Assembly: GCF_016859285.1 (NCBI RefSeq)
Contig: NC_053417.1
Coordinates: forward strand, 10,367,206-10,431,205
Length of the DNA: 64,000 bases
DNA from: Xiphias gladius
Taxonomy: Eukaryota > Chordata > Actinopteri > Istiophoriformes > Xiphiidae
Direction of reading: 5' to 3'
Shown here: one piece after another, positions 17,639 through 63,939 of the stretch
Position numbering within the stretch: position 1 is the stretch's first letter
How the letters are laid out: every line of letters begins with the position of its first letter
Position numbers and translations under genes: made by a program
The notes under the pieces: model-generated
What the model saw: the letters and a program-made list of their open reading frames with translations, nothing else
Told to the model about the DNA's origin: nothing
Databases searched by the model: none

Positions 17639-24179
<6,541 letters not shown>

Positions 24180-27100
24180 TCAGTGTTTAGGGACCCCACT
24201 GTGCTTTTTAACAGTCTTTGCCTTTAAAGAGTTTTTATATAGAAGCAGTCTCTCTGTGGTGTGAGGTGGTAGGCGGTTCCTTTTGGCTCTTACAATGCAT
24301 GCTGCCATTGGAAAAAGCCGGTCGAAGCCCCCTGAGGTGGCTGGTACTGCCAGTAGCGTCTTGGCAATGCCCTGGAGCACGGGGAACCGAGTAGCAGATT
24401 TCCAGTAGAGCACGCTGGAGTTGGTCTCCCACAGTGGTTCGGCCAGGTACACATCAAGCTCTGACATCTTCAAGGTCTTTGCAGGCGGTTGGAGGAAGTT
24501 GAAGATGGACTTGCGCTTGAGGTCATTTCCACTGCCTACGTCACAGTTGTTCTCGTCTGAGCTGGCACCAGATGCCTCCATTAGCGTGTTGGCTTGGCTC
24601 TCCTCTTCGCCATCCTGCTCCTTTTTCAACTCCTTGTTTGTCTGGTCTTTATCTGCTTCCTCAGAAGGAGGTGGTGAGGCCTCCATGCTTTCTAATGTGG
24701 CTTCCACGATGGTACGAGCCTGATTCTTTGACGGAGGAGTTAGGAAACCTGTCTGGTCCTCTAGTTTGGCATCAGAAAACGGCTAGAAAAAGAATGTTCA
24801 AGACAGGGTGAGAGTTATGATTCTGAGTGAAGGTATGACTCCATATAAACAGAGGTGAGTATAAACACAGAGCTCAATATAGAGCTCTACATAAATAAAT
24901 ATAAAATCAGTACAAGATGCCATCTTGCAATTTTGCATCCCACCTTTGAAGTTTTCAGTTCATCAGCTCTGTGGATGCAAAATGGTAAAGCATGACAGAA
25001 GGGGCAGGCTTCTGTCCTAATTCAGTACCTGCATTTTGATCCTGGGGTCAAGCACAGCAGCTAGTATCATGTCCTTCTGGTGAATCAGGGATTGGAAGTG
25101 TGTGTGGAGGCCTGTGCGCAGGGCCTTGTTGAAGTGGGTGTAGTTGGTGACACGGCTCTCCAGGGTCTTATCAAGGCCAATGAGGGAGGGTATGATGAAA
25201 GAGATGGTAACACCATGTCCTTGCAGGACCTGGGTTAGAAGAGGCAAAAAAGGAAATGTTCTCACATAATCTTCTACAAACAATACTCATACTACAACTA
25301 CTGTGATTCCATACATGTATGCAATATGTTAAGGGGTTCACAAAGAAAAAGATGTGTCTAATCCTTGAATCCTTGAATGTACAACTGACAAATTTAGACA
25401 CAAGTGCGTCAACTATTGGATTTATCATAATGTATGTTTGTTTTTAATTTTCATTGAATAAAAAAAAACAAAAAAAAAAACATTCTTACTACATCCATAA
25501 GTTCTCATTAACTTTGTCTTTTACCTGCAAGGCCTCTTCAAAGGGCTCAAGGAGACTCAGGATGTCAGTCACTTGCTCCCTCCTGACCATGACCAGAGGT
25601 GGGGCACTGGCTGTGTCGTTAGCCTCTATGCGGGCCTGGGCAAGGAGCGCCATGATGGTGCTCCAGGCAGATTCCTGCACCATACGGCGTAAAGACAGCA
25701 TCATTGAGTTCCAGCGACAATTACTAGAAGAAGGGCACAGAGACACGTTGCACTCCTTCAACAAAACCTAAACAAACAACAACAAAAGAAAGAGACACAA
25801 AATGGTCATGTTAAAACAATTCAGGAAAGAGACGAAAAGTCTCAAAAATCATGATGAAAAATACCCATCACAGGAAATAAACTGGCAAAGAAAAACAGCG
25901 GTGACACCAACACTAAATGAGACTTAACGAATTATTTAAAAATTTGGTACAACACACTAAAACTTCCAAAAAAAATAAAAAATTTTTGGAAGTATTTGAA
26001 CCTGCAGCTCTAACAGTATCAACAAAGAAAAAACCTTTTTACATTACAAACAACAGAACTAGTACTTTGTTTTATCTCCATACACACACACAAAAAAAAG
26101 AGCACATCTCTCTCAGGTCATGTGCAAGCTTTTTTCATGAAACACTGACCAAACCTTGCTGTTTCAGGACACTGTAAACTTAATCAAAATAAGACACCTT
26201 GCCACTGCTGCCTCATCTTTGGAGGTAAAATTTATAAATATGTGACAGAAAAACAGACTTGCTGACCTGGAGTATTTGCCTTTCCAGAAGAGTATAATCC
26301 AGAGTAAAATAAAATTGAAAATGTTATTTTGTGGCCCAATCCCAATTCCGACCCCTTGGCCCTTCCCCTAGTGTTTTGGAGTGCCCTCGACTGGGTAGTG
26401 GCCCTTCAAAACGGAGCAACAAGGGGGTAGCGGGTTGAAATCTTTACTTAGGAAATGGGAAACGTTTCGTTACTCGTTTTGCAAAGAATTCTGGGAATTT
26501 TCTTCAACAACTCCGTTTGGATTCTGAGAAGTGAAAACGCTCCATTTGGAGGACTTAAAAAAAAACAACAACAAAAAACGGAGGGTTAGGGCATAGTGGT
26601 GGGGCCATGGGGGGGAACTGGAATTGGACCTTAATCTATTTGTCTGTCTCTCCTACCTCACTCCAGTAGGCGCTGCTCCTGAAGAAAGCCACCACGTTGT
26701 GGACCTGTGAGAGCAGGTTCTCCACTACCCTGGAATTCTTCAGTGCCTCCTTGATCACCAGCTGCAGTGTTTTGGCCACACAGGTGGTCCTGTTCCCAAT
26801 CTGTAGCTCTGAAAAGGGGGACTCTGTTTCTGACATCTGGTCTGACAAAAATGCCACTATCTCATCTCCATCTGGTTCTCCCCTGTTGGATGAGCACATG
26901 ATCTTGTAGTCGCAGAACAAGTTGTTTCCGGCCAGGGTTTCTTTCGCCTGATTGGCGAGTACGTAGCCAATGCTGTGAGGAAATATGCCGTAGCTCAGCA
27001 GCACACCTTCAAGCTCGCTGGCCACTGCGGTGCTGAGGTTTTTGTGGCTGACGTGACGGAAAGCCACAATGGGACGACAGATCTGCCAAGAATCACTGAC

Positions 27101-30100
27101 AAAGTGGAGCTGCGCAACGACGATGGGCTCCTCCACTTGTTGGGATTGATCTCCAGCCCAGAGGTCAAAGGTGACATGAATGGCACTTTCACCATCTTTG
27201 GTTCTGGCAAGGCAGGCTTTAAGGTCACGGATGAGCTGAGGCTTAATGGTTCTCTCCACATTGTCATAGAGCTGCAGGCCCATGGCACGCTGGGATAGCT
27301 TGTTGTATTCAGGGCTAATGATACTCATGAAAGACCTGAAGCCTGTGCCTTCTACAAAACTGTGGGAACAAAGATACATTGGCATTATAAATTTTAATGG
27401 GGTGTGTTTGATTGTGTGATCTAGGCTGGTGATTGGATTTCTATCTTAACATGTGGTAGACATACAGGTAACTAGCCTTTCTGCTTCAGGAGGAGGCGTA
27501 TGTGTTGAGCACAGTAATTCAATAAAACACACAAAGGTTGAAAGACCAGCAAGACATATGTTATCGTTCAGGGAACACAGACTCATGAGAGCATGTCTCT
27601 AAATTACATATTACAAACTTAGGTAGTTTAGCAACTTCTGACAACAACCTCACATGGACACATTAACGGCCATTAGCACTAAAAGTCACCTGAGTGGTAG
27701 CATGTCTTCAGCGATCATCCTCAATGCCGCATCAGCAAACTTTTTCTGGTCCACCGGCACGACTGCTGGTGGAGCCCCTGAGCTGGAACTAGGACTGGAA
27801 CTCGAACTGGGGGGCAAGGAGGGACTCGGAGAGGATAACTCTCCCCTCGATGCCAAAGTCTGTGGAGATGGAACAGGCGTTTTCTGCTTGGTTCTCTGAC
27901 ACTCTTTCTGTTTCTTCTCTTTCTTTTGTCTGACCTGCAGAAAAGCAATAAGTAGGAGAGTGAAACCAAGCTTTTCACATGGGAACATTTAGATTTTTTT
28001 AAATAAAAATCATGCATACAAAACCACCTATTAAGTTTATCAGGAAAATTAAAAAAACAAAAAAAACAATCTATATTAAGCTTACCACTTCAGGAGTTAC
28101 TGGTTCAGTGTCTAATACAACGTCACACTTGAAGTCCACCTGTAATACAACATATGATGTAAATCCAGAATAGTGTTGGTGCTGCAATATATTATAAATA
28201 ACACTAGAAGTTTTATTTTTCTTTCATACAGAGTCTGATTAGCAAGCCTCAAAATAATCAATGTACTGATAATGATATTAGTATAATAGAACTGTACTGC
28301 ACTTTATTAAGAACACCACACTAATACTAGGTATGGCCACCCTTTGCTGTAAAACAGTCTCAACTCTCGTGGATTCCACGAGATGTTGGAAACCTTCCTT
28401 TGAAATTCTGGTCCATGTTGACATGATTGCATCACATAATTTCTGCCGATTTGTCAGCTGCACATTTATGCTGCAGATCTCACGTTCTACCACACCCCAA
28501 AGGTGCTCTACTGGATTCAGATCTGGAGATCAGGGAGGCCATTGAGGTATACTGAACTCATTGTCTTGCTCATGTAACCAGTTTGGGACTTTGCTTTGTG
28601 ACATGGTGCATTATCATGCTGGAAGTAGCCATTAGAAGGTAAACTGTGGCCATAAAGGGATGCTAATAGTCAGTAACAATACTCAGGCTGTGGTATTCAG
28701 ACAATGACTTATTGGTGTTAAGGGACCCAAGAAAACCAAGAAAACATCCCTACACCAGCGTGGACTGTTGATACAAGACAGATTGGGTCCATTGATTCAT
28801 TCTGTTAATGTCAAATTCTGATCCTATCATTTGCGTGCCTCAGCAGAAATCAAGATTCACCAGACCAGGCTACATATTTCCAGTCTTCAACTGTCCACTT
28901 TTGATGAGCCTCTGTTCACTGCAGCCTCAGATTTCTGTTCTTGGCTGACTGTAGTGGAACCCAACGTGGTCTTCTGCTGTTGTAGCCCATCTGCCTCAAG
29001 GTTTGACGTGTTGTGCATTCTGGGATGCTTTTCCACTCACAGTTGTAAAGAGTGGTGATCTGAGTTACTGTAGCCTTTCTGTCAGCTCCAACCAGTCTGG
29101 CCATTCCCCTCTGACCACTCTTAGCAACAAGGTCTTTCCATCAACAGAAATGACACTCACTGAATGTTTTTTGTACCCTTCTGAGTACAGTCTACATACT
29201 GTCGTGTGTGAAAATCCCAGGAGATCAGTAGTTTCAGAAACACTCTATCCAGCCCGTCTGACACCAACAATCCTGCCACGGTTCACTTTCTCCATTCTAA
29301 TGTTTGATGTGAACATTAACTGATGCTCCTGACTTGTATCTGCGTGATCTAATGCATTGCACTGCTGACACATGATTGGCTGATTGTATAATTGAATGAA
29401 TAAGCAGGTGTAACGGTGTTCCTAATAAATTGTTTGATTAGTGAATTTACATTTTTCAAACTGTAACCAACAAATATTTTACCAGCTACGTCCCAATGAT
29501 ATTTAATCAACTAAAATGGTGGAAATCAGTAGAAAACTGAAAACAAGGATCCGTACACAATGTGTGCTAAATTCAACTAAAGTTCACTACTGTACCTCTC
29601 CTTCCACAAACTGTTGAATATCAAGGGAAATGCTGTCAGCGTTGTCTTTGTAAAAGCCCAGCTCCGCTTTACGTTTGATGGTAGAGTTCCAGTGATTCTT
29701 CACAGAGTTGTCTGTCCTTCAAGAGGAATTGAAAATGTACATTAAAGTCTCTGTGTCATCCCTGGTTACAAAAGACTTATTTTAAGAGTAACAACAAAAT
29801 AATGCACGTGACTGCCCATCATCTACATTTTTAAATTTCAACAAATCAATCACCGCTAACTGACTCACCTTCCAGGGAGCAGCTTGGCGATCTCAGCCCA
29901 CCGGTTTCCCAGAATGGTGTGGGCTTTGTAGATGATGAGGTCTTCTTCGTCGGTCCAGGAGCTTTTTTTGACCAGTGGGTCAAGGTGGTTGTGCCAGCGC
30001 TCACGACACTGTTTCCCAAGCCGTCCTTTCAAGTGCCTGGCAATCAAAGTCCAGTGTCTGGTGCCGTACTTGCCCACCAGCTCTACTATCTGTCCAGAAC

Positions 30101-33100
30101 AAATACATACGCAAACATAGAACAACAAAGTGAGATAGGACAATATTATCCTCAAGCTGTGTTTAAACTAAGTCTGTATCAGATTTTCTTTGTAATTTTT
30201 CCACCTTTTCGTCTTCCTCTTTGGACCAGAAGCCTTTGACTAAATCAGGATCCAGGTGTTTCTTCCAGCGGTGCATACACTGGAATTCTGTCCGCCCCTG
30301 TCGCAGCAACAGGAAATTAAGTCATTTTTTTTAAATTCTGGGACAGGTTGTTGCATTACTCAAGTTTAAAATGATTAAACATGGAGAGACTGATTAGCAT
30401 TCAGAGATTTGCATTTTTAAGAACCTGACAGACACATGGCTGCAAGCCCTCTGGGATTCTTCTGTTTCATTAACCTTTAAAAGTTCATGTTGCTGATCTC
30501 ATCATTCTCTCTTTCTCAACTGATGTTGTTGCTAATGAATACTTACAGGTAAAAAACTGGCAATGGTTTTCCAATCTTTTTTCCCAAAGTTGGTGATCAG
30601 GATTTTGAGATTGTCATCCTGAAAACACAAGAAGAAATCAGTTCACACACAGTATAATTCAATGTGAGCTTTAAAGCAATGCAGTTTTTATTGAATTTAT
30701 AATTGAATTAAATAATATTATAATTTTAACATTATCTAACAAACCAACAGATCACCAGAAACCTATGTGTCAAATTTCTTGAGCACAAGTTGCCACCTCT
30801 GCTTCAACTGGCTCTTCCTGCTAGCCTGCACCATTACATTTTAGTTACTGACACTAATGTAGTAAACTACTTGAAATTAGAGCCAACAGCTCCAGATAAC
30901 ACCATCCAATGAGTGTGTAAAATATAAATATCAGGCTGCTGTAAGTACAAAAGTTGTTGAAAGTCTTATTTTCACTCACCTCTTCCTGAGTCCATTTGAC
31001 TTTACACTTGGTACCATCCTTCTTCTCTGCTGTGTCTGAGTCAGTGTCAATGTATAAATTACTATCCCCCTCTTCTTCCATGCTGCAAACACACAGTCAA
31101 CCAATAATCAAAACAAACATTTACGGCTGGATTTCAAAATGAGATTACTAAGCGTGAGAAGACACACTATACAGAAGGATTAGATATCTCAGTACAAGGT
31201 ATACAATGTACATTGATATGAACATATGATATGGTTGATATGGACTTCAGAATGGTGGTGTTTAGTTTTTCAAATGTCATTTTTAACCTCACCTTTAGCT
31301 GTCGCATTAATACAACAGCCAACATGTCACTCTCTTTGGACTAACATACTGAAATGCTACATTTAATGCGGTCTCAAGATTAAGACACTATTAGAATGCC
31401 ATTTCCGGCTAATGCCTGTTAAAAGTTACTCTCTATAGTACAATCTACAATGCCACTGCAATCAATATAAAGAACCTGCAAGTTAACATCAAAGTCTATA
31501 GTAAAAACAACATTGCAGATGCCAGACAGGGGAACTCAGAAGAATTTACACAATTATTGGCAGATATATGTGTTCTCTGAAATGTAAATTCCAAATTATC
31601 TGACCTAAAACTCAGTACCAAAGCAATATGTTGGTGTCAGACCAATAAATGTCATTATGGTGCCTAATTCTTATTGCCCTATTCTTGAAAGGCACGTGTA
31701 CTGTACACAGCTAAACAAAGTCTACAGTGCTTTGAAGTCAAAATGCTATGCCTCTGCAGTCAACAGATTCAAACATTGCCGAAACTTGTTTAAAAGTAAA
31801 ATTCCTCCTGATTCATCTCTTAAAACAGCTTACTTGGTAACTGGCATTATCCAGTTCATCTCATGTCTAAAAAATGTCTAAATGTAAATAGAATAAAGAC
31901 TACAGAGACAAAATTAAGTACAAAGGCAGGACTGAATGTTGCAAAGGAATACAAATGTACGTTCAATCCTTAATGACAGCAGAAGAGAGCGTTTACTAAA
32001 CGCTGCCACCAGAGTGGCAGTTCTATGTAAAACAATTTTTTAAAACCTGTCTATATATTCAGCATTAATCAAAACATGCTTGCTCAATATGACAATCTGT
32101 GGTATTTTACAACAATATCCAAATCTCCCGTCAGTCACTACTGGTCTGTCTGATAATGTTAGCCACACTGGTGGCTAAAAGAAAGCCTGTGAATGACTTT
32201 CACTGAAAACATGGAAACTTTTCATTTTCGGACCACCATTCACTGTAAAAATGAACTTTTTGAGGACAGTTTTACTCTCCTATTCTTTATCAGTAAGATG
32301 AAATTTGACATCTTCTCTGTAATGTGCTCAAACAGATAACTTTGTTTGTTGGAAACTGTTGCAGCCAATGAGGAACACACTTTCCACAAGTGTTTTGTTA
32401 AGAGCTAAGACACATAGACTTATATATTCGTATAAATGCTTTGTCACCTATCTAACTCTTCACAATTTCCTTAAGTACAAAGCCTGTGTATTTTACTTTC
32501 CCGTCGCGCAACTATATCAACAAGCATGCATGTTGTGCTCCACAGCCGCGAGCTATCTGCCCACAGAAAAGCTGAGATAGCTTCGCAGCTAACATTAGCT
32601 GCAGCAAACCAAACCATTACCTGGACATGAATATGATACGTTAGGCTATATATATAAATATATATCATCTAAACAATACACTCCGCAGATTTCAAGACAA
32701 AATTACTGAGATGAAATGACTGACAAACTAAAAATCCTTCATTCCAGCTTGCTTGCAATTTGCAGCCAGCTACTTTGGCTAGCAGGTCTCTTGAACACGC
32801 TTGATGAAACGTTGACTGACCATGCAGAGAGTAGAGCGCCTCTAGCGGTGCATGTACGCAAATGCAACAAATCTGCCTGCCATTTTTATCGGCGACAGTG
32901 AGGAGTTTGTGATAAATTTGTGACCAGAACAAGGAAAGCAGGCTGACATGACAGTAGGGAGAAACACAGAAATGCGTACCTAAACTTCAGATTGTGCAAC
33001 TGCTTCTGGAAAACAGCAGGGTCCAGCTTTTCCAGCTCACTACCATGACACAACAGAACAACGGCTTTTAAACGGACATGAGGGAGAGGAAACAACGTCT

Positions 33101-33290
33101 CGCTCACACTCTCATTCACACAACAAATCAAAGCAACCACTGCATTTACAACTATAGCGATGGTTACATTGAAATTATTATAGCCGTTAGATATTCCCAC
33201 CCTGAGCACAACGTAAATACTCATTTTTCTCTCAAATAAAGTAACAACATCCTAAAACGTTCATGTTTCCCTCACTTACCCGCGAGACAT
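24180..33290 (-). CDS. MYBL2-type R1R2R3 Myb domain fused to a hAT-family transposase (12 exons, ~889 aa)
   Basis: Predicted nuclear DNA-binding protein. Exons: 33290-33280, 31082-30980, 30618-30547, 30297-30205, 30089-29869, 29716-29596, 28139-28086, 27934-27690, 27359-26657, 25767-25525, 25229-25029, 24782-24180. All boundaries are GT-AG and phases match throughout. Residues 1-38 (MSR start, DTDSD, KCKVKWT) resemble the MYBL2 N-terminus. Three Myb repeats follow with all nine tryptophans (34, 54, 73; 86, 106, 125; 138, 157, 176) and [20 protein letters not shown] after R3 is MYBL2-like. Residues 225-285 are a Lys-rich then Ser/Pro linker. From about 285 the protein is hAT transposase: [10 protein letters not shown] (368-377), [14 protein letters not shown] (500-513), [10 protein letters not shown] (558-567), an acidic insert (720-770) and the C-terminal dimerisation block (798-870, [18 protein letters not shown]). 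There is no BED finger and no MYBL2 C-terminal domain. Catalysis is probably lost; function unknown. Confidence is for the structure. Confidence 0.93.
26334..26637. mobile_element. MITE with inverted ends in Myb-hAT intron 9
   Basis: The left end reads GGCCCAATCCCAATTCCGAC and the right end, reverse complemented, AGGTCCAATTCCAGTTCCCC; the inside is GC-rich with no ORF. The ends look like those of common non-autonomous fish DNA elements that start with a 'cccaattcc' motif. It is unrelated in sequence to the surrounding hAT exons. Confidence 0.6.
28291..29440 (-). mobile_element. Degenerate Tc1/mariner transposon in Myb-hAT intron 6
   Basis: The ends are imperfect inverted repeats: TTTATTAAGAACACC at the left, and TTTATTAGGAACACC when the right end is reverse complemented. 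On the minus strand the Tc1 catalytic-end motif [11 protein letters not shown] can be read near 28.5 kb, directly preceded by an in-frame stop. N-terminal Tc1-like fragments lie around 28.9-29.1 kb. It is broken and inactive, in the same orientation as the host gene. Confidence 0.8.
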
Positions 33291-34109
33291 CCCTCCTCTG
33301 TATCTCCAGCGTCTGCCCTAGAAACGCAGCCTGGACCGATCAACTGGAAGTTTAAACGTAACTCAAACGAAAAACCCTCTTTTTTGACATAAATTAAAGA
33401 TCCGACAACGCACCGCTGAATAAAGTGTATGTATTAGTTACTAAAATATAGAAAACAGTTAAGCAACTCGTGGCATTCCGAGTAGAAATTTACCCGGGAG
33501 TGAAAATGAGAGGTCTGTTCAAGAACAACAGAGCTGCACAGCTGCACACTCCCCGGAAACGGACCATGCGGATGACGGTTACAACCGACGCTAACGGCTA
33601 ACGGCTGCTGTTGCTCAGACCGTTGACTGTTTGCTCTGCATTCAGGGCTTCACTTTCTAACATTAACAAACCTGTTTAGAAAAAAAAATACCTTTCTCGA
33701 TCAAGCATTCCTGGGCGTTGTCTTGACTGCCGCGTAATGACAACACTAGTTTAGCATTAGAAACATTTTAACTAAATTTACCTCTTCATGAACTCACTGG
33801 TGGGTCCCCTATTTCTGCTAGGCTACATGCTAGCACTGCTCAAACCCATAATTTATTTTGAGTTGTAAGTAAGGCCTCAACTTTTCTAAAGGTAGCAATT
33901 ATAGCAACCTGATGCATAAGAAAATATGTATAAAAGGAGGCAGTCTAGTTTGAATGACATCTGATTTGTCAAAGGAAGGCGCATGTAGGCCTGGCTAGGT
34001 TTTTCTTCAGAATTCACAGCATGCTAATTTTGCCCAGCCGTGTGTGTCTACATGTCTCTCTATGGCTGTGAGGACATGCTGGCCGGTCCTCGCAACTTAA
34101 AGGGCTGTT

Positions 34110-34260
34110 TGAGGGTTATGACTTGATTTTAGGGTTAAAATTAGAATTTGGTTTGGGTTAGGATCAGGGTTAGGTTTGGTGTTGGGCTTTAGTTTTGATG
34201 GTTTATGGTTAGGGCAAGGGGATAGGGAATCCATTTTGTCAGTGAGTGTCCTTACAACCA
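34110..34260 (+). repeat. Degenerate GGGTTAG/TTAGGG-rich tract
   Basis: Contains several AGGGTTA and GGTTAGG words (…gggttaggatcagggttagg…) between decayed flanks. It resembles the degenerate telomere-like minisatellites found in many fish introns and spacers. It is not a clean telomeric array. Confidence 0.55.
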
Positions 34261-36659
34261 TAAAAGGACCAATGCATGTCTGTGTGTGTTAGTGTGCGTT
34301 ATAAGGTTAAGTTTTACAGCCTTGTTCACTTTGGCATTTTCAACTTCGTCCCTGCTCTCTTCATCTGCGTTGCTTAGCAACTATTGGTTCCTCACATTTA
34401 CTACGGTTACTTAAACCAATGTGTTTCTAACAAAATGGGCAGTTTATATTCTTTATCGTGACCCTTTCCATGTGAGAGAAAAGAACATATTTTGAATCTT
34501 TATTGCCCACACAGCTTTTGCGCCTTACTGTCACATTAAACCTTTGTTACCTTCATCCAAACTACTAAAATTCTGTCGACCACATAATAGTAGTGGTGAA
34601 AATGTGGAAAACTATATCTTACACACAATTCTGCATGTGTGTATCACATAGCCTTGGCTTCTGTTTGTTTTTATGCATTACATTCCATTCATGATTCAAT
34701 GACCCCAGTTATGTGTTGTAGTTCTCTTTTTTAACCACTAAGTGGGGCAGTTCCACAGTAATGCAGCTGGTGAGCTGGTAATAAGGTCACCATCTTTCCA
34801 CCTGACTACCTTCTACCTACAGTTGAACACGTGACTGTTAGGATTAATAATTGACCTGTTGATCGCAACAGGAAAAGAGAAATTACTGAGTCTCTGCTGC
34901 TTAAGGTGACCACCATTTCAAACTGTGAGTCAAGTATGTATTTGTTAGTATAGTTTTTTTTTTTAATTTTGTTTTATAATCCTCTTATAACCTTTGTTCT
35001 TCACTAACTGTTCACGTATAGATCTTGTGCTATGTATATTTGTGCATACTAATGGAGACCAGGAAGACTATTAACTGTGGCAGTGGAAGCAAATAGGGAA
35101 TCCGTTTAACATTAAACAATAAAACACTGCTTGCAATGCTTTATCTGGTGAAATTAGTTTGTGCACAGAAAAAACAAATAAGACGAGTGATTAAAAAAAA
35201 AGATGTCATTATCTTATTGAGACTTATTGAAGCTCTGTTTTATATGAAATCTTTTCCAGGAACTATTCTCTTATCTATTCACTGTTGTCTCTGTTTTACC
35301 AGTGCTGTCATTGCTTTATTTTGTATCACTATCATCGGCCTCTTTTCTGATCATTTCCTTACTTTGTTGATATCATTGGGTTTATAACATATTTTCTAGT
35401 CTTTTATTTTTCCTGGAAACTACCTTGTTATGTTGCTATAGAAAACAGCTATTATTTCTACCTGGATTTTATAACACAACCCTAAACACATACAGCATGG
35501 TTGAGAATAGCTTCAGGAAAAATCATCCGTAATTCTGTGAAATGTGTGCATACAGATTTTTTCACCTCTTCCCTCACATCATCCAACATGAAATGGGATG
35601 TGAAGCATCTTGATAAGATGTATTTTTTGCAAGGCTATCTTTTTCAGGAGGGCCCGACTCACACTCACACAATTACACACATTCACTCCTGGAAGCTGGC
35701 CGTTAAAATCACAGTTGGGGTTTGGGGATCAAATCGGCGACACAAGCCCACTCAAGCCTTTAGCCCAGCACTGCCCCTAAATTTACTCTTATCTTTCGCT
35801 TTATGTTTCATAAGCCTTTTCACCGAAGCACAGGTGTAAATAATAAAGTCAGTGATGACTGAATTCCATGTAGGTGATTCAGTGTCAGGGTCCTGGTATT
35901 GTACATGCTGAGAAGAACGGAGGCATTGTTAATGATATTTTAATTTTATTGTATAGTTAGTGTATTCTAACACCTTTTCTTTTTCTACTATGACAAGTCA
36001 GAAAGATCTTCTGCAGGCCTGGCCTATTATCATCATCCTACTTCCTTTCCTTCCCACCTCTGCATTCCTCTTCTTGTATATGCGTTTAGCAGCACCCATG
36101 TCACATGACATGTCCACTCTGGATGTGGATCTAAAGGACAGAGATGTTCAAAGACCTTCGTCTGCCAGTTTTACACGCAGCTGCCTCCGAAACTGGGAGA
36201 TGGACACATTAGCAGAATTAACTGTACAACATCATATCATGCAATCTAGTCTAATTCCATAACCCCATATTAACAGATACATTTCAGAAGGCCAACATAT
36301 TGTTGGTGCAAACCAATTGTTATGTTTGAGGGCTCTGTTGGTGATGCTGCTGTTATGGATTGCATTTTTTTATTACAAATGCATGTAGCTACTAGTCACC
36401 ATGGTATATCAGGCGTAAAACAGATTTTTATTAGACTAGATGTTAAAATGTGTTCTCTGTTGATAAATCAGCGGAGGCTAAAATTAATCAGTGATGTCAG
36501 GCATTATTGATACAACATGATATTTGCAGAGCTCAAGTGTGAAAAGTCAGTGTGTTTGTTTAATGAAACAAGTCTGGTGCCAAAAGGACTTTAAGTGATT
36601 GTGTGCTCACCCTCTAGTCTGCATGTTGCCTCCCAAAAATTGCACAGTATTTTCTGACA

Positions 36660-36986: not shown

Positions 36987-39900
36987 TCACTCGGTCCACT
37001 CATTTAAAAACTCAAATCTACCATGAAGTGTGCCAATTAACTTTTGCCAAACTCTAGAAACAGTGGAATAAGAGGCGCTGAACCTGAAAGCCAAATCTTT
37101 CAGAGGAAGATTAAGTCTCAACCTCAGCCAAATTAATTGTTCACATTTAAAAATCATAGACAAATGTCTACAGGTGATATAAGGCCCGCACACTTGAAAA
37201 ACCTGCAATAAAACTAAGATGTTGGGGAGCCCAGTGTAAAACTTTGTCTTGTCTTCATTCTTCTGAAAAGACTCTTGGCTAAACTGTGTTTCCAATGCTT
37301 TAGTCTGAAGATCACCCAGTTCTGTTGTGGTTTGCTTCAGCATATCTTCCATCCTTTCAATTTCATCCAGGGTTAGTTCTGTCTGGCATCCTGCATCTGC
37401 AGACAATACTGTATATGGCAGTGGGACTGTCACTTTTTCCAAAAATCAAGCCTGAAGGAATTTAAAACGACACGCAATTGGTTTGAATGATCAGTGTTGT
37501 CTAGTTATCTTCTTAGTTGTCAGCTTTCTTACAAAGGTTCAAGGTATCTGGTCCAATTATTTGCAGATTTTTATTTTTTATACAATCATTTAACCAGGTG
37601 AGTTCATTGAGAACCAGTGGTGGAAAGTAGCTAAGTACATTTACTCAAGTACTGTGCTTAAGTACCAACGCTGTGACATAAGGACAAGCAAGGCAAGCAA
37701 ATCTGATATTGCCTGTTTGCATTCATCTTGTACTTTACTGTCCTCTTGTGGCCGACGTAAGCTATGTCTCTGGAAGCTAGGTTGACTACCAGTCGTTAAA
37801 TCTATTGTTTGTGTCATTTTCGTGAGCGTGGCCCTGTCCCGTTGACAAAGGCTGGGGCTTATCAAGCTGGGGGGGCAACATTATTTTTGAATGCTTGCCC
37901 ATTGTGGACAATCCTGGGAACTGACGGGTGCCTAGATATAACCGACTACAGACTCAGCTTCCACCGTTCTGAGATCAGTTATGGAACTGAACACATTAAT
38001 GTAATGGAGTATTCTCACATTGCTGTATTGGTACTTTTATACAAATGCACAGATACGTGTGGAAACTGTACTTGAGCATAAGAAAATCACTTCAACAGTC
38101 TTTTTTTCCCAAGCATGAAGACACAGCAGCAGGAAGTAAACTAGCAAATGACACTACGAATCATCATCTCAAATCAGTATAGGCTGTTTTACTAAGGGGT
38201 TATAACAAGGACAACAGGAGTTAGGGTGTATTATGGAGAAGCATTTGCAAGAAAGGCTCTCCCAGACATATTTATTCAGTTTACATATTAACAGTTAACT
38301 ATGTAACATAATAGCCAACCCTTTTAATTCTGTTCTGCTTTGTATTTATCTTATCAATATTTTTACCTTTCTGTTATTCAAGGTGTAGGGTTCTCTGTGC
38401 AAGATCTGCAGTAAATTTGAGAAGTTTGACACAGCACATTGAGGCAGGAAAATACAGGATTCCTCATCGTCACTGGAGTGTGTCATTTTCAGTTAATGGT
38501 AAATATTTTGAAGATTAAATAGAAGTAGATTTAAAAAAAAAGATATATTTCCTCTATACTGCACATTTGATATGTTTACTGTCAGATCTAAGGAATAATC
38601 CTAATATTATATATGTTATACTTCCATTCCACTACATTTCAGAGGGAAATATTGTACTTTCTTCTTCACTACATTTATTTGACGGCTTTAGTTACTTGCT
38701 ACTTTTGAGATGAAGATTTTACACAATGGATATTATAACAAGCTTTTAAAATAGAACACATCGTTAAAGATTAAACCAGTGGTTTCCAACCTTTTTTGAT
38801 TCTGAGTTATTCACAGCTCTGCCAAATACAGACTTTTCCCTCTAAACTTCTCACATGGTTTCATTTCAATAAATATTCAAATGATCCAACATCTCAAACA
38901 TTTAAGATTTGAGAAAAAGTCCTAAAACTGAAAACAAATTTTTGTATCAGAACTTTTTTTTCCCCTTTCCTCTCCCAGTAATCATCTCACAACCCCTCAG
39001 ATTTATATGGTGTCCTTGTATATAAAGTACTTCAAATCAGCCCCACCTCCAGCTGCTACACATTGATGCTCCAGTATTAATCATCTAATGGTGTCATATA
39101 TAATAATATATCAGTCCGAGGCACCAAACCAGTACTTTTACTTTAATACTTGAGCTACATTTTGCTCATTTGTAGGATTTTTCATGCAAGATTTTTACTT
39201 GTAATGGAGTATTTTTACATTGCTGTATTGGTACTTTTACTTAAGTAAAGAATCGAATACTTCTTCTACCACTGTTGAGAACTTAGTATACCTTATTTGT
39301 TGTCAGAGTCACGTCTGCCTTATCCAACTATAATTTAAGATGCTGTCTACACTCATTCATCCAATTCATTTACCTTGTCGATCGCGTAACATCTCGGTGA
39401 TGTCCTCTGGCCCTGGCTTCTCAGCCGACTCATGGAGATCCAGCAAGGCCTCTGCACCTTCTGTGCGTCTTTGGTGATCATCCCCGGGCCTCGTCCTCTC
39501 CTCTCGTAGAAGCGATGCCTCTGACATGGACTTACCTTTCTGATAGCCCAGGTTAACTGTAGGAGCCCAGTCTACGGACTCAACGTCATTTAAAGCACTA
39601 GGGCAGCCTTGGGAGAACAATAAAACCGCAAGAAACGCTTGTAGCAATAAGGCTGCACCCTGCAAAACACTTTAGCGTTAGTTGTCATTGCTACTTATAG
39701 TTGTTCAGTTACAGTCACAGACAGAAACAATAACTTTAACATTACAAAAGAAAGAAGCAGTTAGCTACATAAACATAGACACATACACCGCATTAAAAGC
39801 TGTTACCGGTATTAATGTTGTGGCTGAATGATTTCCTATATCTGCGTGCGTGAGCGCGCGCACCGTGTCCGTAGCGTTTTTCTACGGTTTCCCGGTCGAA

Positions 39901-45073: not shown

Positions 45074-54822
<9,749 letters not shown>

Positions 54823-60471: not shown

Positions 60472-63715
<3,244 letters not shown>

Positions 63716-63939
63716 CTGAAGGAGGAACAGAGATGGAGCTATAACACATATAAATACTGACATTAGTCAGTACATTTAAGCTCATATTCAAACGGGCACG
63801 TCAAAACCTTTAGTGCCTTGGCCCCAGATGACAAGTACACTCGGTCAAAGCTGTAATGAACCTTTGGGAGCTGGAGAAACATTTTAAACACTATCACACA
63901 CATACGAGATCATAGAATTCATAACCTCAGACATTTTCA

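Follow-up and report, generated by a model that had tools for sequence, protein, structure and literature searches.

The window (the whole stretch of DNA that we analysed, 64 kb long) contains on its minus strand a predicted gene that joins a Myb DNA-binding domain to the body of a hAT transposase. Rebuilding this gene from the raw window gave 13 exons, running from 33290 down to 24180. All 12 introns have a GT donor and an AG acceptor, and their phases are consistent. The resulting frame has 909 codons plus a stop, from the ATG at 33290 to the TGA that ends at 24180. An earlier note on this DNA had proposed 12 exons and 889 codons. That model describes the same gene, and its GT-AG sites and phases hold, but it omits exon 2, which is in frame. 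The exons are listed below; C21 is the locus of a mybl2 gene to which we return, and C18 is the locus of the fusion.

33280..33290, minus strand: exon 1, carries the start codon
33039-32980, minus strand: exon 2, 60 nt, in frame, phase 2 to phase 2, with GT-AG sites; its use is uncertain
30980..31082, minus strand: exon 3, acidic N-terminus, then the first part of R1; matches an exon of C21 mybl2
30547..30618, minus strand: exon 4, R1
30205..30297, minus strand: exon 5, the last part of R1 and the first part of R2
29869..30089, minus strand: exon 6, R2 and most of R3
29596..29716, minus strand: exon 7, final part of R3 plus the residues that follow; beyond it, no exon has a recognised counterpart in mybl2
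28086..28139, minus strand: exon 8, a short linker exon of 54 nt
27690..27934, minus strand: exon 9, a basic, Ser/Pro-rich linker, after which hAT homology begins
26657..27359, minus strand: exon 10, hAT catalytic region
25525..25767, minus strand: exon 11, hAT body with the RW motif
25029..25229, minus strand: exon 12, hAT body
24180..24782, minus strand: exon 13, an acidic insertion, Dimer_Tnp_hAT (window positions 24231-24461) and the stop codon

Codon use in the hAT exons scores +0.28 per codon in frame 0, as compared to -0.12 and -0.14 in the other sense frames and +0.04 to -0.22 in the antisense frames, and it resembles that of neighbouring coding exons. Frame 0 of the hAT part has no stop codons, versus 26 and 32 in the other two sense frames. 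Also, GC3 in the hAT exons is 0.62, versus a GC content of 0.37 in the introns.

Weak but uninterrupted protein alignments run across the junctions within the hAT part (at residues 326, 561, 642, and 709). A hAT on C467 aligns to residues 314-894 of the fusion at 19% identity, and a ZBED4-like gene aligns to residues 520-717 at 23% identity; both alignments span hAT splices. The two splices that join the Myb and hAT halves (227|228 and 245|246) were placed by splice sites and phase alone, and a phase match by itself is worth only about 1 in 3. Because exon 8 is 54 nt long, skipping it would also preserve the frame. As a prediction from sequence, the fused gene is likely to be real. Searches with Rfam and for tRNAs gave no matches, and a search with NCBIfam gave a single match, below the cut-off.

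Two features surround or precede the start codon:

33000..33700, no strand: CpG-rich region around the start, the sole one between 24 and 34.5 kb
33576..33625, no strand: Myb-site cluster upstream of the start codon, with six YAACNG hexamers within 50 bp

The observed/expected ratio of CpG is 1.02 in 33000-33499 and 1.09 over approximately 33250-33700, while no other 500-bp bin in 24000-34499 exceeds 0.68. The Myb-site cluster is the densest 60-bp cluster of its kind in the window (the next has four sites). Between 33290 and 33700 there are nine YAACNG sites, which is the highest count among 360 letter-permuted motifs (the next has eight). Six sites in 60 bp were reached in 0/3000 local resamplings, where the maximum was four; in 100 resamplings of the whole window, two reached five sites and none reached six. 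Against this, nine of the 360 motifs (the Myb motif is one of them) form a 60-bp cluster of at least six somewhere in the window, and the Myb motif was examined post hoc, together with E2F, CHR, and CCAAT motifs. None of those three has a match upstream of the start. In the stretches that we fetched from the other four Myb loci of the genome, which may or may not include the promoters, no cluster has more than four YAACNG sites. We consider the six hexamers to be a candidate cluster of Myb sites, with a possible role in auto- or cross-regulation.

The Myb half and its mybl2 relatives

Pfam's Myb_DNA-binding model matches the fusion protein in three stretches (E=1.4e-49). As the earlier note had reported, the domain is a full R1R2R3 with nine tryptophans (residues 54, 74, 93, 106, 126, 145, 158, 177, and 196), so all three repeats are present with their conserved tryptophans. 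In the PDB, the Myb half matches c-Myb (1h88, E=5.6e-73), and the alignment covers all three repeats (102/153 identical over residues 51-203). Across R2R3, the fusion is 81% identical to B-Myb (1a5j), 80% identical to C21, and 71% identical to c-Myb (1h88). We can rule out a Myb-like protein from a PIF/Harbinger transposon, as the domain is of the R1R2R3 proto-oncogene type.

We searched the genome (690.8 Mb in 1298 contigs) and found 15 R1R2R3 matches at five loci: C18 (the fusion), C21, C4, C5, and C15. The gene content and the presence of two mybl2 loci point to a teleost genome. In a tree of seven sequences, the Myb domain of the fusion pairs with mybl2 from C21 (support 85), and B-Myb (1a5j) joins next. 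The branch to the fusion is the longer of the pair (0.29 versus 0.19). The introns within the Myb half are at the same positions in the fusion and in C21 mybl2, and the donor of exon 7 is in phase 0 in both. These matching positions indicate that the two are gene duplicates; a retrocopy of a Myb gene is ruled out because the introns were kept. Over 157 codons, the two Myb halves differ with pN of 0.15 and pS of 0.78. Synonymous change between them is saturated and protein change is limited.

The C-terminal part of a normal Myb was not found at the fusion locus. The Pfam model for the Myb C-terminal domain (PF09316) has six matches, at C4, C5, and C21, and none at C18 or C15. Since C15 likewise lacks a match, the fusion locus is not the only one without PF09316. 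When three pieces of the tail of C21 mybl2 were compared to the window, the best match had E=0.35 only. As no recognisable Myb tail was found at C18, we refer to a Myb-domain fusion and not to a normal B-Myb. In B-Myb, the tail includes transactivation, negative-regulatory, and MuvB-binding regions, according to an excerpt of PMC9478404. The R1R2R3 locus on C15 (C15:1163001-1181000) is divergent, with a long branch in the tree; one of its open reading frames looks tail-like by eye.

Two genes in the window lie next to the fusion on the same strand:

45074..54325, minus strand: SGK-type kinase gene, with Pkinase_C and kinase exons (best PDB match Sgk1, E=3.3e-109)
60472..63766, minus strand: L3MBTL gene, with SAM and MBT domains; it extends past the window

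On the minus strand of C18, the order is L3MBTL, SGK-type kinase, fusion, while on C21 the order is RRM-domain gene, IFT52, mybl2. Pfam identifies the RRM-domain gene by its RRM and nothing more specific; by our reading it is probably SRSF6. All five matches to IFT52 are on C21, with none elsewhere. There are 46 matches to MBT, of which four are at C18:10430804-10435401, adjoining the fusion. Five more are on C21, but at 24.60 Mb; mybl2 is at 27.86 Mb and has none beside it. In the human genome, the order is SRSF6, L3MBTL1, SGK2, IFT52, MYBL2 (part of PMC3635907), and a table in the accessible part of PMC5984074 gives the same neighbours for the vervet. C18 and C21 hold complementary parts of the human block, as a pair from a genome duplication would. 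The fusion falls with mybl2 in the tree and lies in the same genomic neighbourhood, and on these two grounds we are confident that the host gene was a second copy of mybl2 (B-Myb).

We also compared 84 kb of C18 to 48.5 kb of C21. At a threshold of E = 1e-4, these stretches have only the Myb exons and a Tc1-like relict in common. The relict on the C21 side is near C21:27854200-27855200; it may just be a common repeat.

The hAT half and its relatives

Homology to hAT transposases extends from about residue 311 to residue 893. Dimer_Tnp_hAT matches residues 817-893 (E=4.7e-9; 36.3 bits, with a cut-off of 21.4), which confirms the hAT body with a C-terminal dimerisation block that had been proposed. 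The match to hAT-like_RNase-H (E=0.059) is below the cut-off, and an alignment to Hermes spans this region weakly. In the PDB, the hAT half matches Hermes transposase (6dww, E=2.5e-10); its matches there comprise four distinct sequences, of which two are named Hermes transposase and two just "transposase". The rebuilt frame and the Pfam and PDB matches all agree with the earlier claim of an in-frame join between the Myb domain and a hAT body.

The transposase is probably no longer catalytic if we have assigned the key positions correctly. At the positions that we take to be the catalytic Asp/Asp/Glu and the conserved His of hAT transposases, the alignment to Hermes shows that the first Asp is retained (exon 10). 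The stretch of exon 10 that aligns to the second Asp has no Asp, the conserved His is replaced by Lys, and the catalytic Glu is replaced by Asp (exon 13). The D-D-E triad is broken, with two of its three residues lost.

We did not identify a BED finger in the window: the best hit, using a model of five BED fingers from this genome, had E=0.11, while a control had E=3.8e-19. A genome-wide search for BED fingers scored 150 of 1091 candidates and proves little. BED fingers are not present in every hAT.

Ten matches to the hAT half occur in the genome. Five of these correspond to the exons of the fusion itself, and the remaining five show 24-51% identity along parts of the protein, with E=8e-6 at best. 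There is no second copy among the ten. The lack of a close relative in the genome suggests that the hAT half is old. Between 23000 and 29590 we found nine pairs of inverted repeats, none of which look like hAT ends by eye. An active transposon or a recent insertion is ruled out by the single copy, the introns, the two catalytic changes, and the lack of convincing terminal repeats. A single scan of viral contigs turned up no relative. In a neutral simulation with substitutions only (1000 runs), the frame stayed open in 35% of runs at 2% divergence and in 1% at 10% divergence, which supports selection on the hAT frame only weakly.

Two other hAT-derived sequences of the genome may be mentioned here. 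The nearest by identity is a decayed relict at C11:27892258, which matches the beginning of the fusion's hAT part with 49% identity over 45 residues. Another hAT-derived stretch (positions 2187-4459 of C18:16095000-16103000) has at least two frames and a dimerisation domain, and could be a gene or a relict.

Proposed origin and function

On balance, we favor the view that this gene is one of two mybl2 copies, and that its regulatory tail was replaced by a captured hAT body. Both copies most likely date from the teleost genome duplication. In one of them, a hAT transposon would have inserted downstream of the exon in which the Myb domain ends, and the phase-0 donor of exon 7 would then have been spliced to hAT-derived exons. 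The normal B-Myb tail would have been lost at C18, while the sister gene on C21 kept its tail. The capture would presumably postdate the duplication.

Because the DNA-binding domain of B-Myb has been kept, the predicted protein should bind Myb sites (YAACNG). It would do so without the transactivation, negative-regulatory, and MuvB-binding regions of the tail. The presence of the hAT dimerisation domain suggests that a role in dimerisation or protein interaction was retained, in which case this domain might pair fusion proteins on Myb sites. Such a dimeric protein could compete with B-Myb and other Mybs for these sites. Competition with B-Myb would be the simplest outcome, and we suggest it tentatively, as a plausible guess about the protein's role. 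Feedback would also be possible, via the candidate Myb-site cluster in the fusion's own promoter. We are more doubtful of a broader proposal, in which a swap of tail for hAT after the duplication gave teleosts in general a dimeric brake on B-Myb, which Mybs would induce through the promoter cluster to form a negative feedback loop. The alternatives that follow overlap with parts of the explanation that we favor.

If the fused gene is real, its protein might instead activate a subset of Myb targets. Without their negative regulatory region, Mybs activate reporters that depend on Myb (in the available portion of PMC9478404), so activation by the fusion is conceivable. We think it unlikely, as the tail that holds the transactivation region of Myb was not found at C18.

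A fused mRNA might also exist without any settled function, if the gene is young or under relaxed constraint and is drifting or unique to this species. The second copy of mybl2 may be redundant, and the longer branch to the fusion in the Myb tree is in keeping with such drift. But the fusion's coding frame stays open for about 2.7 kb across 13 exons, and in the hAT exons codon use resembles that of coding sequence. It has changed at two catalytic residues and yet acquired no stop. The apparent age of the hAT half and the low pN relative to pS between the Myb halves also argue for constraint, and we view a functionless chimera as improbable.

The remaining question is whether this is one gene or two. 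Two features bear on it:

23718..23723, minus strand: AATAAA, roughly 460 nt downstream of the stop codon
28300..29500, minus strand: relict in intron 7, decayed and presumably Tc1/mariner-like; a relative lies beside C21 mybl2

A truncated mybl2 could end in intron 7, and a domesticated hAT could start in or near exon 9. Intron 7 contains two AATAAA hexamers, one at 28303, on the edge of the relict, and one at 28212, behind it. It also contains a stop two codons past the donor of exon 7, so a Myb-only product would be possible. Similarly, the frame of exon 9 is open upstream into intron 8, where it begins with an ATG, so a hAT-only product would be possible. On the minus strand, there is no AATAAA between 28139 and 24180 (from exon 8 to the stop codon), while ATTAAA occurs in introns 7, 9 (27393), and 11 (25443), and also at 24090, 24023, and 24001. 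Both hexamers are more common in the window than in shuffled sequences (141 AATAAA versus a mean of 67, and 94 ATTAAA versus a mean of 69), so their presence or absence is weak evidence.

If these were two genes, then the hAT exons would have no CpG-rich region before them, and no recognised DNA-binding domain would stand at the N-terminus of the hAT protein. The splice sites and phases on both sides of the boundary are compatible, which also speaks against two genes. Each half seems incomplete on its own: the Myb half lacks a tail, and the hAT half lacks a CpG-rich promoter or a BED finger. We consider two adjacent genes to be quite improbable, and we infer that both halves of the fused gene are carried on one mRNA.

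Relation to known fusion genes

Fusions of host genes to transposases are a known kind, and the nearest precedent that we found is GTF2IRD2. In mammals, this protein has GTF2I-like repeats at its N-terminus and a Charlie8-like hAT at its C-terminus (in the accessible part of PMC10641963). The earlier note had treated it as unusual that the host, and not the transposon, supplies the DNA-binding part. Given GTF2IRD2, the idea that such a combination has no precedent is not supported. Like the fusion, GTF2IRD2 joins the N-terminus of a host transcription factor to a C-terminal hAT, but it is from another host family. Also, the hAT part of human GTF2IRD2 keeps the DDE/RW residues, according to the same excerpt, while the fusion has lost two of three catalytic residues. 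That excerpt adds that hAT transposons from fish are often misannotated as GTF2IRD2. In the fusion, the hAT exons come after genuine Myb exons and are separated by introns, and they have no second copy in the genome. GTF2IRD2 is said to antagonise its relatives, reportedly from work by Palmer in 2012.

Transposase-capture fusions such as KRABINER (Cosby 2021) also have host exons in frame with a transposase. In the captured cases from tetrapods, DNA-binding domains derived from transposable elements tended to join host regulatory domains (from a portion of PMC12062965). Here, it is the host Myb that supplies the DNA-binding part. This had been suggested from the sequence beforehand, and the rebuilt frame and the Pfam and PDB matches uphold it.

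As for relatives of each half, B-Myb (MYBL2) shares the R1R2R3 domain, the intron positions, and the genomic neighbourhood with the fusion. The fusion differs in having a hAT body, and the C-terminal Myb regions were not found in it. The ZBED4-like gene on C2 and the hAT on C467 resemble the fusion in having a hAT body with a dimerisation domain, but BED fingers are present in them and each has a single long open frame. The fusion lacks a BED finger, and its hAT part is spread over five exons.

We found no description of a Myb-hAT fusion in the open-licence literature, among the titles and abstract openings of the matches listed. An automatic annotation model of this gene may exist. If our interpretation is correct, then the MYB proto-oncogene family would contribute a case to the few known genes in which a host DNA-binding domain acquired a transposase body, and the gene would show how a duplicated regulator of the cell cycle can be rebuilt. 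It also raises the questions of whether the fusion is shared among teleosts, when it formed after the genome duplication, and whether it opposes B-Myb.

Two other open frames on the minus strand of the window are worth recording. The frame at 19616-20212 adjoins NSUN5 and encodes 198 residues without a Pfam match. The frame at 36987-37445 contains HTH_Tnp_4 and is a transposase fragment.
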